From Utricularia gibba (taxonomy: Eukaryota; Streptophyta; Magnoliopsida; Lamiales; Lentibulariaceae), in the NCBI GenBank assembly GCA_002189035.1, contig CM007991.1, positions 372,001-436,000 on the forward strand: 64,000 nt of DNA, read 5' to 3'. A program made the position numbers and the translations under genes. Below the pieces are notes generated by a model. It saw only the letters and a program-made list of their open reading frames with translations. It made no database searches and was not told the origin of the DNA. The number at the start of each line of letters is the position of its first letter. Positions within the stretch are counted from its first letter, which is position 1. Below, one piece after another: positions 22,838 to 63,722 of this stretch.

Positions 22838-24977
22838 TCAAATATACTCATGAAGAATCATTTCTTGTCCATGACCGATCTCTGGTTTCTCGTACAGGCT
22901 ACGTTCTTCTTCCTCAATCACTGCCAAGGGGTTTGCTCTCTTGAGGGCCGGCCGCTTCTGGAACTTCTTCTTGTTGTTCTCTTGGATCCCTTCGTCTCCC
23001 TTTAGCATCCTCACAACCTTCATAACACAGCATAAGAAAAGAATATCTGTGATGTTCAAAAAACCAGCTGCAACAGCAACGTACTTGGCTCATTTGCGGC
23101 CTTTCTGAACAGTCATGGTGGATGCACAGGGTGGCCACATGAACGACGTGATGCAGCTGATCAACATTGTAGTTCCCGTTGAGGGCCGGATCAATGATCT
23201 TCCCTAAATCATGGGTTTGCAGGATGGGTTTGGCCTGTAATTTCCATCAAGCTTTTATCAGTCAGTATGCTGAACTTGATCTCATGAATATTTTCAGATA
23301 AGGTGGGTTACCCATATCAGAACGCTGTTTCCTGATTCATCTATGGCTGGCCGGCTGCTCACAAGCTCCAACAACAGAACCCCATATGCATAAACATCTG
23401 TCTTTTCATCAACTATTCCATGCATGAAGAACTCCGGAGGGAGATAACTGAGGTGAAAAAAAAAAGAGAGAGAAATAGATCTTATGGCTGAGGTAGAAGA
23501 AGCAAGAGAAGGGATACTGAAATTATTTGTTCAAAACATAGAAAGCCACCCAAATGTGCCTTCAATATGTGAAACAGTGAGGTGAGTCCATTGATCTGGA
23601 AGCCATTTTGCAAGTCCAAAATCTGAAATCTGCACATGTAATGTAGAGACAGAAGGGACTAGAATTTAGGGTTGCTCAAAGTAATCTAGAAAAAAGGTCT
23701 CTGCTTGCCTGTGGTTCAAAATCTGCAGTGAGCAAAATATTAGCAGACTTGATGTCTCTATGGATGATTCTTCTTTGGCAACCCTCATGGAGATAGGAGA
23801 GACCCGAGGCAATGCCTAGAGCAATGTTGTATCTGAGTTGCCATGTCAACTTTCCCTTCTCCCCTGAGCAGTTGAAACCAGTAAAATGACAGAAACAACT
23901 GTTTATTTTGAGGAGCCAAAACGAACCTTTTAGCAGAGAAGACAAGCTTCCGTTGGGAGATAGTGGAAGGACAAGATGCATCCCTCCTTCAACCCCATAC
24001 CCAACTACTCCCGAAATATTTGGATGATTAACGTGCACCAGAATTCCGAGCTCCGACAAGTAATCCGACGTCATTTCCTCTTGTGTTCCTCTAATAAGCC
24101 TTTTCACAGCTATGAGTTGTCCATCTTCCAAGTGCCCTTTGTATACCTCAGAATACCCACCTTCTCCAATCAAGTTCTCTAACCAAGATCCAAAAGAGTT
24201 GGTTTCATTGGAACACAGAATACAGAAACATGTCTTGTCCAAATTGCTGTACCTTGGCTGAAGTCATTAGTAGCTTCTTGAAGGTCAGAAAGTGTAAAAT
24301 TTTTCCAGGAAGTCTCAAAGCAGTAATACAAGTCGGCTTCTATGTGAGGAGGAAGAGATGGCAAACTCTGTGAACTCCTCGTAGTCTTCTTCTTTGAAAG
24401 CTTCTTTATGGAGGGAAGATGAGGTATGCTGGGATGAAACGAAGGCCCCTTTTTCAGCTTCCGAAGAAATCCCTTCCATTGTGAGCCAGCGCCTTCACTG
24501 TCGTCTTTCTCATTCGTCTTGGTGTCTTCCAAACTTACTGTTGATCCTACCTCTATTGCTACTATTGCCGAATTTCCCTTGTCTTCCTCTTTTCTAGACG
24601 AGGATTCGTCTTCTGTTGCGGCGAGCTCGAGGTCCAAGTTGCTTAAATCTACAGAAAACTTGATGATCGATCGTGACTCCTTTGAATACGCTGAACAATA
24701 CAAATTCTTGCTGGTTACCTTCCGGAGACAAGGTGATGGAGGTGGAGAAGAGTAATTTCTTCCCAACTATAAAGAATTGTCCATCAGAGCTCTCATCAGC
24801 AACTTCGCTTGCATCATCGGTTTCCCTTCGCAGACACCCAGCATAATCAAGCAACAGAAGCCATTCAATCAAGGTAACAAATTTGGATTTTCAATCAGCA
24901 AACATGATCATTCATCATTAACATGAAAAACTGTCTGGTTATGGTTTTTGTTACCTGTTCTGGGCTTCATTTTCCAT
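22838..24977 (-). CDS. Receptor-like cytoplasmic kinase, RLCK-VI / ROP-binding kinase type
   Basis: Soluble Ser/Thr kinase; the RLCK-VI family includes the ROP-GTPase-binding RBK1/RBK2. Exons (minus): 24955-24977, 24719-24825, 24253-24648, 23927-24178, 23709-23863, 23550-23629, 23312-23447, 23085-23234, 22838-23017; 493 codons, 492 aa. The N-terminal region is acidic and basic (SQWKGFLRKLKKG). The kinase domain begins SWKNFTLSDLQEATNDFSQ, with Gly-rich loop GEGGYSEV, Lys201 in AVKRL, catalytic HRDIKSAN (D296; an RD kinase) and SDFGLAKW (D314). The signature LCIHHDCSERPQMSQVVRML is typical of this subfamily. The intron after 23709 starts with GC (CAG|GCAAGC). The first two exons (a 23-base MENEAQN exon and ETDDASEVADESSDG) are my best phase-consistent model and are less certain. 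Confidence 0.9.
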
Positions 24978-27034
24978 GGCGCCCTGGAAACGAGGAAGGG
25001 GGAGAGAGAAAGAGAGCAAGAAGCAAAAATGGAAGAAATCGTCTGGTGCGTTGGGTTACATCTCATTGCATGCAATCAATCCATCTGGTGGCTTTCATCA
25101 ATTTCTTACCTCCTTAAAAACATCCAAACCTTGAACTGCGGGTTTTATTTGCCATTTTGAGAATGATCCATTTTTCTTACATTAAATAAATACATCCATA
25201 AAAAAAATAAAACAAAACTAACCCGAAAACCCATCCTAAGTCATGCCATAAAATGTTATTTTGTGTTAAATAATATATATTTGATTGCATCTGCTATGAG
25301 TAATTAATACACGAAATGCATAAAATCAACTCGATGTGCTTTGATTGAATGTCAATCAAACTAAATAATATATAGTTTTTTTGAAATAGTTTGAAAAAAT
25401 AGTAATGATAGTAGATTACGTCTTCAATGGAATCAATGGAAAAATTGGGAGTGGCAACAAATTTTTACATAAAGAATGTCAACGAAAAAAAAAAAGTTGT
25501 ATGAAACGTTTTTATAATATATGATATTTAGTACGAATATTCTGCTAATTTTTTAAATATAAATTCAACTTGATATCAAACATATGATAGTTGCTCCTTT
25601 TAATATTCCAAACTTCTTTCTCTTCCAACAGAACACCATTAGAATTTGAAATATCTGAGTGGCACACCAGTAGTAGTTGGGTTTCTGAACTTTCAAAATG
25701 TAAGAATTACCGATATTCAGAACCTTATTTTCGATCAGTGTTTTAAAGTAACGAATTCAATTTAAATCTGATAAAAATGATTCAATCCAAATTCATACTA
25801 ACAAAATCTAAAAATGAATTCAACCCGTTTTTAAAACACTGGTTCTCGTTTTAGGTTTACTCGTTAGCATATTGCCATCGATTTCAATTTTTGACAAATA
25901 CGGATTAAACGAAAATCTAATACCCTAAATCGTGTGTCGTGTTTGATAGATTTGTTTATTTTTTTCGAATTACGTTTATTTAATAGATGTGTTCTCTAAT
26001 ACACATGATTTGCAAAACATTTTTAGTAATGTTTTCTAAATTCTTTGCTTGTGGGAGTTTTCTCAATCAATGAAGATTTAGTTTTCTTAATTAAACAAGA
26101 TTTTATCAAACATAATATTATTTTAAATAGATATTTATAAAGCTGACTTAGTAAACATACTTTCAATGCTAACTATTACTAATTTACTTAAAATGAAACT
26201 AGTCTACCGAACATCCATTTTTGAATTTTTATGGATGATGTTTATAATAATATCCATAAAAAAAGTCAAAGTGACTTAAATCGGGTTTATGGGTTGGAAA
26301 TTGGAATGGGCATCTCGTGGTATTCTTTGGTTTTTAATTTTTAAATACAATTTATTATCCAAATTGTCAACGTTTACTTAAACCAAATTGCAACATGCTT
26401 GGAGCACCATGCTTTCTTGCCCTAAAGAGGAAAAATTACAATGAAAAGTAATCGGCACCACTTCTGGGGTTTACGTACTCGGAAAGAAACGAACACCCAA
26501 CACAAATGACCAACGGTGTGAAACTTCGAGTGGGTCACCTGAGTCCACGTGCGGAAAATAAAAGTATCAGACCAATGCCACGTGATGAAACAAAATCCAA
26601 GTACCCGCATGCAGGAAAACCGTTTGTACGAATTACGTAATTATAAATATCTCCAGGGGTCCCACACCCTGCTGCGACTCAAGTTGTTGAAAGTATACTT
26701 CATAAAGAAACGTGGACCGTATGTTTTTAGATCACGGTTCACATTAATCTTGAACCTTATTTTCAAGTAGGTAATTTACTGTGGTTTGAGAAGTGGTTAA
26801 GGGTATTTATAGCCTTAATTTGTAGTAAAAAGATGAAAAAGAACCGATGTGGGATGCATATCCATTACAGTAGTAAACCAACAGTTGAAGAGTACGCTTG
26901 AAATTTCTCTGAGTTACCATTCCATCAAGCAACTCCCATCTCGTTCCAATCTCCTTCGCTTCTTCCCATCTCTCTGTCTCTCCCTCTATATATATGCATC
27001 CACAGGACAAGGCATCGTCTCAGTTTGAAAGTTG
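24978..27034. other. Intergenic, divergent promoters
   Basis: About 2 kb between the minus-strand kinase and the plus-strand DMP fusion gene. It is AT-rich and non-coding, with scattered diverged copies of low-complexity segments. The last about 150 bases include a TATATATA box near 26989, about 45 bases upstream of the DMP ATG, where a core promoter would be expected. Confidence 0.5.
26985..26996 (+). promoter_or_regulatory. Candidate TATA box of the DMP-RRM gene
   Basis: A CTATATATATG stretch sits about 40-50 bases upstream of the ATG at 27035, after a CT-rich tract (TCTCTCTGTCTCTCCCTC). The position is close for a TATA box, so the transcript would have a very short leader. Inferred from sequence only. 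Confidence 0.35.
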
Positions 27035-28156
27035 ATGGCCACCGGTGGAAGCCAGGCGGCGTTCAAGGGTCTGAGCAGTCTCTTCACGCATCTTCCGACA
27101 GGAACGGTGTTCCTGTTCCAGTTTCTCAGCCCGGTCCTGACCAACAACGGAGAATGCCGACCGTTTAACAAGATCTTATCCAGCTCTCTGATCATCCTGT
27201 GCAGCATATCCTGCTTGCTCTTCTCCATCTCCGATAGCTACACCGACCCCCAGGGGAATAAGATTTTCGGCGTAGCCACGCGGACCGGGATGTGGCTCGG
27301 CTCCGGCAGTGTAGCCGCGGAGGAGCTGTACGAATATAGACTTAAAATAGGGGATCTGGTGCATGCCATCTTCTCTTTGATTATTTTTGCTACTATCGCG
27401 CTCTTGGACACCAACATGGTGAATTGCTTCTACCCGGGGTTCAAGTCGACGCAGAGCATGCTCGTCGTCGTCATCCCTACCCTCATCGGAGCCATCTCCG
27501 GTGTAGTGTTCGTCATGTTTCCGAACAAGCGCCATCGCCTAAGGTATGTTTCATATTTCGCCGTAGGGTTTCCCCTTTACCTCTGCTTATCAGAAGTATG
27601 CTCTTGATTACCAGTTAAAGTACTTGGAAATGCCCTTTTCAGATTGAAGCCAAGAGCTGGGGGTGTATGGACAGTCGAAAGCGAGGACTTGCCGTCACAA
27701 ATTAGCCCCAAAAAGGAAGAACCTGCACCAGGGCAATGCTTAGGGTTTCTGCAACCAGAGGAAGAAATCACAAGCATCTCATACTTCGTCACGAACTTCC
27801 CCGATCACTTGACTGCCAAGGATCTCTGGATCGTCTTCAGTAGAAACGTCGGTCCCGTCGTGGATGTAACCATCCCCGGAGCCCGGACACGGAGAGGGAC
27901 ACGCTTCGCCTACATTCGGTTCTATGTACGGTCATTAGAAGATGAGCTTGAATGCGCCCGCCGGATTTCCAGTGTGTGGTGGGGGAACTACAAGTTGGTA
28001 GTATATCCGGCGCGTTCACGGGGATCCACTGATCACTATCATCCGTCGTTCATTGCTGCAAGCATGCCTCCGGCGCAGGTGGACGCGGCGACCGGCGGCA
28101 ATGGGAGGTTACTGGAGGGGCCGCTCCAACTGAACGAGCTTCGAGTTGAAAGATGA
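27035..28156 (+). CDS. DUF679 (DMP) membrane protein fused by splicing to an RRM domain
   Basis: Exons 27035-27543 and 27643-28156 (99-bp GT-AG intron), 341 codons, 340 aa. Residues 1-169 are a complete DMP protein with four hydrophobic segments (about 20-35, 46-65, 106-126, 143-165), the family motifs HLPTGTVFLFQFLSPVL and CFYPGF, and the usual end region (VVFVMFPNKRH). DMPs are small ER/vacuole membrane proteins; DMP8/9 act in gamete fusion. The second exon continues in phase (CTA AG|A TTG). It encodes an RRM: an RNP2-like strand YFVTNF, helix AKDLWIVFS, an RNP1-like strand GTRFAYIRF and WWGNYKLVVYPAR. This style is seen in RRMs of plant LINE-related proteins. No ATG precedes the RRM in its frame, so it can be translated only as a fusion. 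Intron retention would give a normal 190-aa DMP ending at 27607. Fusion expression is inferred. Confidence 0.82.
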
Positions 28157-31624: not shown

Positions 31625-34600
31625 TCAAGCCGCGGCTTGGGCTGCAGCTAGCCTTGCGATTGGCACCCTGGTATTTCAAAGATCAGATTTTGCGGCGGAG
31701 AGACAAAAGGGTAGTTTGGGGTCGAGTCTTTCTTGTACCTGAACGGGGAGCAGGACACGTAGTCCAGCCCGGCTTCAGCGAAAAAGGCGACCGATGACGG
31801 CTCCCCGCCGTGCTCCCCGCATATGCCGATCTGCCATTTTGCTTCATTAGTTGAATGGATGCCTGTGCAAGTTATGAGCTGAGGGATAACGCACCTTGAG
31901 GTCTGGCCTGGCGGCACGGCCTCGCTCTGCAGCCAACTTGATGAGCTGACCCACTCCTTTCTGATCCAGCACCTGATGATGCATTTCATTTCACCCAGTT
32001 AGCATTTTTCATGTAAGCATGAGTTGAATGGTTTTCGGAGAAGACGAGCCTCAAATGGATCATGCTGGAGGATTCCCTTCGCAAGGTATATGGGAAGAAA
32101 TTTTCCAACATCATCTCTGCTGTATCCAAAGGTCATCTGAGTGAGATCATTCGTCCCGAAGGAGAAGAACTCTGCTTCCTTGGCGATCTGCGCAGGTGGT
32201 TAGATGTAAGCTTCACCCAGAAATCATGATGCTGTGTGTGTGCTAGTTTACCTCATCGGCAACTAAAGCAGCTCTGGGAATTTCAATCATGGTTCCCACT
32301 TTGTAGGTGATGGTCACCCCTGTTTCGGAGAATACCTTCTTGGCAACCTCATGAATCAGGCTCACCTGGTGACTTAGTTCCTGGAAACAGAGCATTTACC
32401 AGATTAATTTGGAAGCGAAAAGAGAGTGTGATTCTAGGAAGACATGCCTGAGGAGTTCCGATGAGAGGAACCATGATCTCTGGAAGGACGGTGATCCCCT
32501 GCTGAGTCAAAGAGATGGCTGCCTGGAATATAGCCAGGACCTGCATTTGTGTGAGTTCCGGGTATGATATTCCGAGGCGGCAGCCGCGGAAACCGAGCAT
32601 CGGATTCACTTCGGAAAGTTTTTCGATTCTCATGTATACATCATCCTCGTTCATTCCGGTATCCTCTGTCACTTGTTTCACGATCTGTTCGATGTCTCCC
32701 TCCGGAAGAAATTCGTGAAGCGGCGGATCGAGGAGTCGAATCGTTACCGGAAGGCCATCCATGGCCCGAAAAATGCCTTCGAAGTCTGTTCGTTGGTAAG
32801 GGAGGAGCAAATCTAGGGCTTTTTTCCGCTGCTCTGTGGTGACCGCCATGATCATCTTTCGCACGGCCTTGATCCTCTCATCCGACGCAAAGAACTGAAA
32901 TTCAAAAATGAATACGTTGCATCGAAATTCATTGATTGATGATATTTACGGAAAGGACTTGCCATGTGCTCTGTTCTGCATAATCCGATCCCCTGAGCGC
33001 CATTGCTCCGAGCGATCAGTGCATCTTCAGGGGTATCTGCGTTGGCCATGACTTTGATGCGCCGTATCTCGTCGGCAAACGACATGAAAACCTCAAGGTC
33101 GCCGCTAAGAAGCGGCGGCGACAGAGCTTGTTGCCCGAGGATCACTTCGCCGGTGGAGCCGTTTAGGGAAATCCAGTCACCTTCAGCAATCCTAGTCTGC
33201 GCGACATACGCCACCTTTTCATCCTCGTTGACACGGAGATCCGAGCAACCAGAAACGCAGCATTTTCCCCATCCCCGAGCTACCACCGCCGCGTGGGACG
33301 TCATTCCGCCTCTCGCGGTTAGGATTCCGGCGGCTGCGTGCATCCCTCCGACGTCCTCTGGGCTCGTCTCCGTTCTCACCAAGATCACACTTTTCCCTTG
33401 TGCGTGCCATGCCTCTGCATCTTCAGCGCTGAAAACAACCACTCCCACAGCTGCTCCTGGGGATGCTGGAAGGCCCTTGGCGAGTACAGCATCTTTATAC
33501 GCGGATGGATCTTCGAACTACATGATCAAGTTAAACTCTTACCTTGAACAAACAGGTGTTTTTCTTTAATAAACTAATTAAAGTTTCACTTCACCTGAGG
33601 ATGAAGAAGCTGGTCCAGATGCTGAGGCTCAACCATCTTCACGGCGGAGCGCCGGTCCACCAGCCCTTCGTTAACCATGTCGACAGCAATCTTCACCGCG
33701 CCTTTTCCTGTTCGCTTTCCAGTTCTGCATTGCAGCATATACAGCCTGTTTTCTTGCACCGTGAACTCAATGTCCTGGTTTAGGAAAGCCCAAACGCAGG
33801 TGTGAAACATTTTGCAGTTCTCATTTTTTATGTATTGGGACTCTATGTTTAGACCTTACCATCATCTCTTTGTAGTGTTTCTCTAGAATCACACAGTTCT
33901 CCACCAGTTCCTTGTAGGCTTCCGGCATAGCATCCTTCATTGCTTCCAGTTCCAGCGGCGTCCGGATTCCGGCAACAACATCTTCTCCCTGGAATCATAT
34001 GGAGTTTCTCATCAGGGATGCACAAACTTGGGTTTGAAGAAGAATGACGAAGATGAAAGGACCTGAGCATTGATAAGGAACTCCCCATAGAGCTTCTTCT
34101 CACCAGTGCTGGGATCTCTAGTGAAGAGAACCCCTGTTCCTGAAGAATTCCCCATGTTCCCAAACACCATGGTCTGAATGTTGACAGCAGTTCCCTTCAG
34201 ACCAGTGATTTGGTTTATGCTTCTGTACTTTATCGCCCTGGGACTGTCCCATGAATCAAACACAGCCTTCACTGAGAGTTCTAACTGCTTTTTTGGATCT
34301 ACAAGCAGGATCCACAAATAAGAACGACTGATACAATACCAGTGAAGGGGAGGATCATCTGTAACAGTTACCGGATGGGAACTCTTGACCCGTTGCTTGA
34401 AGATAGACGGCCTTGTATTCTTCCACGAGTTGCTTTAGATCACTGGCTGTGAGTTCAGTGTCCTGCTTCAATCCCAGTGTGATCTTCCTCTTCTCCAGCT
34501 TCTCCTCGAACAGAGAATGAGAAATCCCCATCACCTTCAAAGAAAGGCCATTTGTCAGCTATCACAGATTCCAGCTATTCCATGGCTCATATTTTATGCA

Positions 34601-36597
34601 CTGATCAACTGACCACATCTCCAAACATGTCCAAGAATCGTCTGTAGGAGTCGTAGGCGAACCTCTCGCCGCTCTTCTTTGCCAATCCGTAGACAACTTC
34701 ATCGTTGAGCCCGAGATTGAGGACCGTGTCCATCATTCCTGGCATAGAAATCTGCATTCCATCCATCAGATAAACCATGTTTGTTTTCCTTGGGATAAGG
34801 TGGTCGAGAACTCACCGCCGCGCCGGATCTTACAGACAGGAGCAAAGGGTTGTTGGGGTCACCGAGCGAAGCTCCCATCTCTTCCTCAACCAACTTCAGA
34901 GCATCCATTATCTCCTCCCACAGTCCATCAGGCAGCTGTTTTCCAGCAAGCTGATAGTCCTGGCAAGCCTCTGTGGATATCGTCAGCCCCGGCGGCACTG
35001 ATAATCCAATGCTTGACATCTCAGCGAGATTCGCTCCCTTTCCTCCCAACTAATCAAAAAACAAAAGGTAAACCTATTCATTGCAGTAGAATACCAGAGA
35101 GATGAAAACTAACAAGAATCTAGCTATGATGTATGATCACTCACCAGGGCTTTCATGCCCTTGTTCCCCTCGCTTCTTCCCTTGACGAAAGTGAAAACCC
35201 TCTACATAGAGAAAGAAATGCAGGGAGTCAGCTCAATACTCACATTCATAGCATAGACTATCGAAATTGGTAAACCTTCATCTCGTGCTTGGAATCCCCC
35301 ATTTTGGAGCACAACAGCAACAGAAGGGAAGAGATTTAAAGCCGGGAGTGAAGGATAATACATCAGACAGAACCAAGAACTTTAGCAGGCTGAGACCATG
35401 ATGCCAAGTGTCAAGAATCATGGCCTCTGCTAATGGCGGTGCAATTGTTTATTACAGCAGAGAAACATGATTTTGCGTTGTCTTGTGTGAGTTCAGGGGC
35501 GGTGGAGGGGGAGTGCGCACATCGGAAACTGGGAAACAACCTCGTAGTTATCTGAAAACATATACCTATCTATAGTCCCGCCGCCCATTGACAAACATCA
35601 AACATATCCATGACCGCATGAAATCATCTTCTTCTTTCCTAAAACTGTCATCCACCCCCCATTATCAAGTTTCCAGAAAAAAACGTTGGTACCGCAAATG
35701 AAATGAACTCCCTCATCTGTGGGATTAGCAGCTACTAGAAATGGATTATCTCGTAACTCGGTCTTTCACCTGCACTAAACACACCCCATGTGACAACGAA
35801 TCTGTTGCTTCGGGGTTGGGCCCTTTTGAATGACAATGTGAGAGCGACGAGGCGTCGTCGCTCGTTTGGAAGGCATGAGAGTAGTAGACAAGAAGAGAGC
35901 AGTGGTGACCCTCACAGAACAGACGATACTGGCTGATCTTCCAGATAGATCATGCATCATCTCCGATTCTACAAAGCTGGGCTAAATTATTGAAGAATGG
36001 GTGTGTCTCCTCCCACATCACAGATAACAAAAACAGGTTTTTAGAACACATTACTTGACTGAACCGTAGATCAGGATAGACAAATGGGAAGCCGAAATAG
36101 GACTAAGTGAGAGGCAGGGTGGAACTGGAGACAATGGAATCCCTGGAACTGTGGCTCGAGTCCATACTTATGGGAATGGAAACCTATCACTTTGTAACAC
36201 GGGGAAGGGAAAAAAGAGAGTGCTATTAACATATTTTAACTTAGAGGGGTGTTCTAACACGAGTTGCTAACACGAATGAATAAACTTTTTGTGATCAAAC
36301 CAGAGAAGGAAGCTGAATATGGAATCAGGAATATGCGGTGGTGCTCACCTTTTTTGTGGTGGGTGTGGGCTCGGGATGAGCCACAGGAGGTGCGAGGGTG
36401 GCTCGAGCCGAGAGGCCGCATGGTTTGATGGCTTCGTGGCTCAAAGTCCGGGTGGACAACCAGGTCGCCCTCCTGGTGCTGCACCATGGCAGCACCCTGA
36501 GATGATGACTATTCTTGTTGTTGGTTCTGAGGCCGAGAGTTCTTGCCAGGAGTTCCTCTCCTCTCACAGAGACGTCCCTTACTAGAGACGACGACAT
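31625..36597 (-). CDS. PPDK: Pyruvate, phosphate dikinase with plastid and cytosolic first exons
   Basis: Interconverts pyruvate + ATP + Pi and PEP + AMP + PPi; the plastid form is the C4/CAM PEP regenerator, the cytosolic form acts in seeds and senescing leaves. Exons (minus): 36349-36597 (plastid) or 35276-35302 (cytosolic, MGDSKHEMK), then 35145-35201, 34816-35049, 34614-34751, 34372-34534, 34063-34298, 33860-33988, 33595-33774, 32963-33517, 32448-32894, 32252-32380, 32050-32187, 31895-31972, 31739-31830, 31625-31667. Predicted 955 aa (plastid) and 881 aa (cytosolic). Catalytic His (about H537) and regulatory Thr (about T535) lie in [16 protein letters not shown]. The catalytic Cys lies in [11 protein letters not shown]. 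The nucleotide-binding domain starts [11 protein letters not shown]. The plastid exon is Ser/Arg-rich and ends TPTTKK, a typical transit peptide. Introns after 32963, 32448 and 32050 begin with GC instead of GT. Confidence 0.96.
35303..36348 (-). promoter_or_regulatory. PPDK intron 1 containing the probable cytosolic-isoform promoter
   Basis: The 1-kb intron between the plastid transit-peptide exon and the shared second exon also contains the alternative first coding exon (35276-35302) at its downstream end. By analogy with maize and Arabidopsis PPDK, a second promoter inside this intron drives the cytosolic transcript. The exon layout is seen directly; the promoter is inferred and no core element was pinned down. 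Confidence 0.6.
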
Positions 36598-63366: not shown

Positions 63367-63722
63367 GCATTCCCCCAACTAGGTTATTGAATTAGGGATT
63401 GTTGTGTTAATGGGGATTTTCATGATTAACACTGTCTTAACATTCCTAACAGGGCATTAAGAATCTTATTAAATTAAATAGCATTCACAATATTTGTGAT
63501 ACTAAAGGGACATTGAATTCAGAATGTTTTAAATACAAAGGAAAATGAAGCGCTGTTGCAAACTTGAATTTGAAGATACTCCTTGATTTCCTCCACAAAT
63601 CTTGAACACAAAAGCATCTATTTTTGGAATTCTCTGTCTCTCTGATGCTTCTCCATTTTCCATTGAATCAAAAAGCTTCAACCAAAGAAAGCAGACTTCT
63701 CTGGCATTCATCTCTTGACAGG

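Follow-up and report, generated by a model that had tools for sequence, protein, structure and literature searches.

Can a membrane protein of the DMP (DUF679) family carry an RNA-recognition motif (RRM) as part of its normal product? The question arises at positions 27035-28156 of the window, by which we mean the whole 64,000-nucleotide stretch of Utricularia gibba DNA analysed here. DMPs are important in haploid induction, gamete fusion and senescence, and the family has also been implicated in membrane remodelling and cell death. Most plant DMPs are intronless, and in a survey of 24 species DUF679 was the only domain in every DMP (PMC11477165). A preliminary description of this locus had proposed a DMP joined in frame to an RRM and had stated that no such architecture was known. 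In agreement with that statement, no paper treating DUF679 together with the term ‘RNA recognition motif’ was found in the open-access literature, a scope which leaves out most subscription papers. The combination is probably a new domain architecture built from known parts, unreported as far as we have seen.

Structure of the gene

The coding sequence opens with the ATG at 27035 and reaches the donor CCTAAG/GTATGT (the slash marks the splice junction). After an intron ending in TTTTCAG, exon 2 completes the split codon AG/A and adds 170 more residues up to the TGA. The spliced frame encodes 340 aa and the unspliced frame 190 aa. On checking, the coordinates, phase and lengths first given for the DMP and RRM exons proved exact (Table 1).

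Table 1. Features of the DMP-RRM gene in the window and exons of its second copy
Feature	Position	Strand	Details and basis
Candidate promoter/5′ leader, block kept in the second copy, TATATATA box near 26986	26881-27034	+	blastn and alignment
Exon 1, complete DMP/DUF679 domain, residues 1-169 and two bases of codon 170	27035-27543	+	509 nt; Pfam PF05078
Putative former position of the GIG[FY] ER-export motif, CAT CGC CTA AG/G TAT GT	27533-27549	+	3′ DNA of this genome’s other DMPs
Intron, GT-AG, T-rich (38% T)	27544-27642	+	99 bases; unlike the 209-base intron of the second copy except at the splice sites
Exon 2, linker, RRM, low-constraint tail and stop codon TGA	27643-28156	+	514 nt
RRM core of LINE-ORF1 type (SISYFVTNF...TRFAYIRF...NYKLVVYPAR)	27773-28021	+	PF00076, AF2, Foldseek, dN/dS
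Second copy, exon 1	L018:3396-3901		reading of the C414 locus
Second copy, exon 2	L018:4111-4624		reading of the C414 locus; preceded by a 209-base intron

In the spliced protein, Pfam places DUF679 at residues 12-168 (E 5.4e-54, positions 2-160 of a profile of 163) and RRM_1 at residues 218-263 (E 7.9e-5, 22.9 bits). The RRM of the second copy reaches 26.2 bits (E 7.4e-6), and both copies exceed the Pfam gathering cut-off for RRM_1 of 20.7 bits. Hydropathy plots give three strong segments per copy; four helices are expected in a DMP, and the first of them is weak.

A second copy of the fusion

The assembly searched comprises 100 Mb and may be partial, and the number of DMP-RRM copies is accordingly at least two. 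A protein search with exon 2 against this assembly recovered one strong, stop-free second copy at C414:2455111-2455620, and a DUF679 search located a DMP domain directly 5′ of it (C414:2454425-2454898). The complete second gene (C414:2454395-2455623) lies inside a collinear block. It carries the donor G/GTATG and the acceptor TTTCAG/ATTGAAGC, keeps the splice phase of the window copy and encodes a spliced product of 339 aa with the C-terminus LNEVRVER (LNELRVER in the window copy). A second locus thus repeats the exon pair, its boundaries and its phase, which bears out the in-frame fusion that had been proposed.

Flanking ORFs also agree in order and orientation: a BSD-domain gene, an ORF at 63606 and, on the minus strand, a pyruvate phosphate dikinase-like gene. 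The dS values of these neighbour pairs (0.25-0.76) bracket those of the fusion pair (0.65-0.69). Collinear neighbours of similar dS identify the two loci as ohnologues or segmental duplicates, and the presence of one architecture in both duplicates indicates that the DMP-RRM fusion predates this whole-genome or segmental duplication. The comparison is one between two loci of a single plant assembly. In a tree of the DMPs sampled from this genome, the two fused copies group together (100/99), with the unfused L010 and L014 next to them (97/97), which indicates that the fusion was a single event on that branch.

Conservation of splicing and selection on the product

Similarity between the copies, as detected by blastn, extends over 26881-27551, which covers the candidate promoter, exon 1 and the first 8 intron bases. 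It returns at 27637, 6 bases 5′ of exon 2, and continues through 28156, where the stop codon ends. Neither blastn nor alignment reveals similarity between the two intron bodies beyond the splice sites. As these introns are unrelated and their lengths of 99 and 209 bases leave different remainders on division by 3, splicing alone keeps the RRM in the DMP frame in both genes. The RRM had been described as lacking an in-frame ATG of its own and as meaningful only within the fusion. The first point holds for the window copy, in which the sole in-frame ATG of exon 2 (28064) lies 3′ of the RRM and none lies 5′ of it. It does not hold for the ohnologue, in which exon 2 carries an in-frame Met 5′ of the RRM (EMKKEEH). 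This weakens the argument when taken alone; the lack of conserved sequence between donor and acceptor takes its place, and with it the second point stands.

The exon 1 pair shares 80.5% amino acid identity (dN 0.117, dS 0.647). The exon 2 pair shares 64.5%, with every gap a multiple of 3 (dN 0.232, dS 0.694). Constraint within exon 2 is uneven. The RRMs are 79% identical and their dN and dS (0.12 and 0.66) give a ratio of about 0.18, the same as that of the DMP part, and the values for the linker are 0.30 and 1.09. The Pro/Gly-rich tail reported earlier is real, and it is weakly constrained (dN 0.40, dS 0.52, close to neutral). Substitutions in the RRM fall on codon positions 1, 2 and 3 in the numbers 10, 8 and 28, a third-position excess (p 4e-4). 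When random histories of 131 substitutions were simulated, the frame stayed open in 1.2% of them. These patterns indicate that the spliced DMP-RRM form is under purifying selection in both of its domains.

A real two-exon gene with a conserved DMP-RRM fusion protein as its normal product is, in our judgement, very probable. The other readings of the locus differ in what they take the exons to be. An ordinary DMP ending within the ‘intron’, followed by a separate RRM gene with its first exon elsewhere, would suit the intronless habit of most plant DMPs (PMC11477165) and the existence of the unspliced 190-aa frame. Yet the interval between donor and acceptor, unconserved between the copies, holds no common promoter or first exon, the two splice sites are themselves conserved, the unspliced tails bear no resemblance to each other and the fused DMP is without the GIGY end of other DMPs, which together make two genes highly unlikely. 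Equally hard to credit, or slightly more so, is a decaying or neutral read-through fusion with a functionless RRM. It would account for the near-neutral C-terminal tail, but the low RRM ratio at a dS of about 0.66, the in-frame nature of all indels and the retention of LNE[LV]RVER before the stop codon in both copies speak against it.

The preliminary description had also envisaged a switch, in which splicing yields the 340-aa fusion and intron retention a functional 190-aa DMP. The sequence permits both forms, and a retained-intron transcript would still encode the entire DMP core. However, the retained tails, YVSYFAVGFPLYLCLSEVCS in the window copy and YALYYWYLYSFYNTHKTRVPRHETLFYVNPYGISECEL in the ohnologue, are unrelated in sequence, differ in length (20 vs 38 aa beyond the junction codon) and bear no sign of constraint, whereas the spliced form is constrained. 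A conserved switch between splicing and retention is therefore unsupported, and we consider a regulated switch improbable, although the intron may be retained intermittently. The separate-gene, decay and switch readings were all rejected on comparison of the two copies.

The DMP part and the proposed birth of the splice donor

By profile the fused DMP is a DMP, and its C-terminus is derived. It resembles other DMP/DUF679 proteins (PF05078; AtDMP1-10) in its complete DUF679 domain and expected four-helix layout, and differs from them in that the GIG[FY] end is gone and an intron and RRM exon stand in its place. Both fused copies end their DMP part in KRHRLR, where L006, L007, L008, L010 and L015 have R[HR]GIG[FY]. 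GIG is retained in the other DMPs of this genome that were examined, except L014, and is missing from both fused copies. The common C-terminus reads FPxRRHGIG[FY]P, encoded for instance in L015 by CGC CAT GGA ATA GGG TAT CCC. At the corresponding site, the window fusion has CGC CAT CGC CTA AG/G TAT GTT and the ohnologue CGC CAC CGA CTA CG/G TAT GCT. We infer from this codon-level correspondence that the donor GTATG(T/C) occupies the codons that once specified the G-Y of GIGY.

In AtDMP1 both the N- and the C-terminus are cytosolic, and replacement of GIGY by AAAA impaired ER export (PMC5383025). By analogy with this topology and this role of GIGY, the RRM of the fusion likely faces the cytosol and the protein likely leaves the ER poorly.

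Two further DMP loci of this genome are of note. In L014 (G000:C413:4614096-4617566) the DMP reading frame closes with FPKQGMG, short of a complete GIG[FY] terminus, and the gene is possibly truncated. A tandem DMP gene pair lies at G000:C4:3297147-3302213 (L010, L015 and L016). L010 is intact, and the second DMP of the pair reads as one ORF of 120 aa and another of 111 aa that lie in separate frames, owing to a frameshift or an intron.

The RRM domain

The AF2 model of the RRM, built on a two-row alignment (mean pLDDT 56), adopts the order β-α-β-β-α-β, with a core pLDDT of about 75-88 and a disordered linker and tail. In the numbering of the model, strands span residues 44-50, 72-76, 87-94 and 119-122 and helices residues 58-68 and 98-108. 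A Foldseek comparison of the model with the PDB returned RRMs as the best matches. By sequence, the best PDB matches are ZCRB1 and Prp24, the former being weak (E 8e-4). Three aromatic residues are invariant in both copies: one F in RNP2 (YFVTNF) and an F and a Y in RNP1 (RFAYIRF). The aromatics of RNP2 and RNP1 are the stacking positions of RRMs. RNP1 (TRFAYIRF) has an R where a G is usual. The domain is thus like those of canonical cellular RRM proteins (PF00076) in its fold and RNP aromatics, and unlike them in its weak sequence match and its membrane anchor. On these sequence features, RNA binding by the fusion RRM is likely.

Origin of the RRM

Plant LINEs of the BNR type form a clade whose ORF1 contains an RRM (Heitkam & Schmidt 2009, as cited in PMC5348765). 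The preliminary description had likened the fusion RRM to such domains, and genome searches and a LINE profile agree with it. In protein searches of the genome, the best scored matches past the fused pair are the RRMs of decayed LINE-like elements and an orphan RRM of like pattern at C2:1997065. The genome contains at least 150 RRM_1 matches, but the leading places in these searches went to the RRM-bearing LINE-type loci or the LINE-like orphan. Two of the LINE-type loci (L044 and L045) carry a reverse transcriptase (RVT_1) 3′ of the RRM and on its strand. Under a profile built from seven fragments of LINE RRMs, the fusion RRMs reach 27.7 and 29.4 bits, and 20 cellular RRMs, picked among strong RRM_1 matches of the same genome, at most 16.1 bits; the link to LINEs is to be read as such a profile preference. 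Conversely, a profile of the fused pair scores the orphan at 30.1 bits, one LINE copy at 29.0 and the best cellular RRM (L055) at 14.4. Profile scores therefore place the fusion RRM nearer to this genome’s LINE ORF1 RRMs than to the sampled cellular RRMs.

With the ORF1 RRM of plant LINEs (the RRM-bearing L1 clade) the fusion shares the pattern FVTxFP...L...F...G..VDV.[IV]...R...G.RF.[FY][IL]RF. It differs from ORF1 in that no endonuclease or reverse transcriptase lies downstream and in that its RRM is joined to a membrane domain, occurs as one copy per ohnologous locus and is under purifying selection. No LINE remnant and no reverse transcriptase motif were found in the window. The orphan RRM (L004, G000:C2:1997065-1997286, minus strand) is of LINE type, with DQEYFFHNIPKD preceding RRRYGFVRF and GSYKMRASVSRSKS following in another frame; the fusion-RRM profile gives it the highest score of any single match (30 bits). 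Exon 2 had no match in prokaryote and viral collections, as expected, a result which is uninformative on other plants.

These comparisons make a LINE origin of the fusion RRM the somewhat favoured account. Derivation from an ordinary cellular RRM gene, with the LINE likeness due to convergence or a long branch, would fit the weak affinity to both groups (32-38% identity over ~65 residues), the cellular L055, which outscores some decayed LINE copies under the fused-pair profile, and the window free of LINE remnants. Against it stand the LINE-type top matches past the pair and the LINE profile, under which each fusion RRM outscores every one of the 20 cellular controls, and we hold a cellular source to be rather doubtful. 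The earlier proposal that a retroelement-like exon was captured downstream of a DMP gene is plausible, and the event would be old, as it predates the duplication; the window itself offers no remnant in its favour.

Proposed mechanism and implications

In the scheme that we propose, DNA that encodes an RRM and stems from a LINE ORF1-like source would have arrived behind a DMP gene that had no intron. The GIGY codons would have given rise to a splice donor (GGG TAT CC to AGG TAT GT), and the RRM exon would have taken the place of the DMP C-terminus and the GIGY export motif before the whole-genome or segmental duplication. The DMP part would put the fusion in endomembranes, with ER exit slowed or blocked through the loss of GIGY, and the cytosol-facing RRM would retain particular RNAs at that endomembrane. 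We regard such membrane tethering of RNA as moderately probable. The full account appears evenly balanced: a LINE ORF1 RNA-binding domain domesticated as the cytosolic tail of a DMP, giving an ER- or endomembrane-tethered RNA-binding protein, kept in two copies after genome duplication and linking the DMP family to RNA localisation.

A DMP-RRM fusion kept by selection hints that, in at least one lineage, RNA and the membranes that bear DMPs can have a functional connection. If the scheme is true, it describes a datable case in which a host membrane protein recruited an RNA-binding domain of retrotransposon type and in which the birth of a splice donor can be read at the level of codons.

Flanking sequences

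About 150 bp 5′ of the ATG (Table 1) are well conserved between the copies and form a candidate shared promoter. Protein kinase exons (PK_Tyr_Ser-Thr) adjoin the DMP-RRM gene on the opposite strand (23676-24766, minus strand), with no counterpart seen in the ohnologous 68 kb. The pyruvate phosphate dikinase-like gene of the window (31651-35569, minus strand) has multiple exons with matches to PEP-utilizers, PEP-utilizers_C and PPDK_N, and its best exons are 91-94% identical to the collinear copy beside the second DMP-RRM gene.
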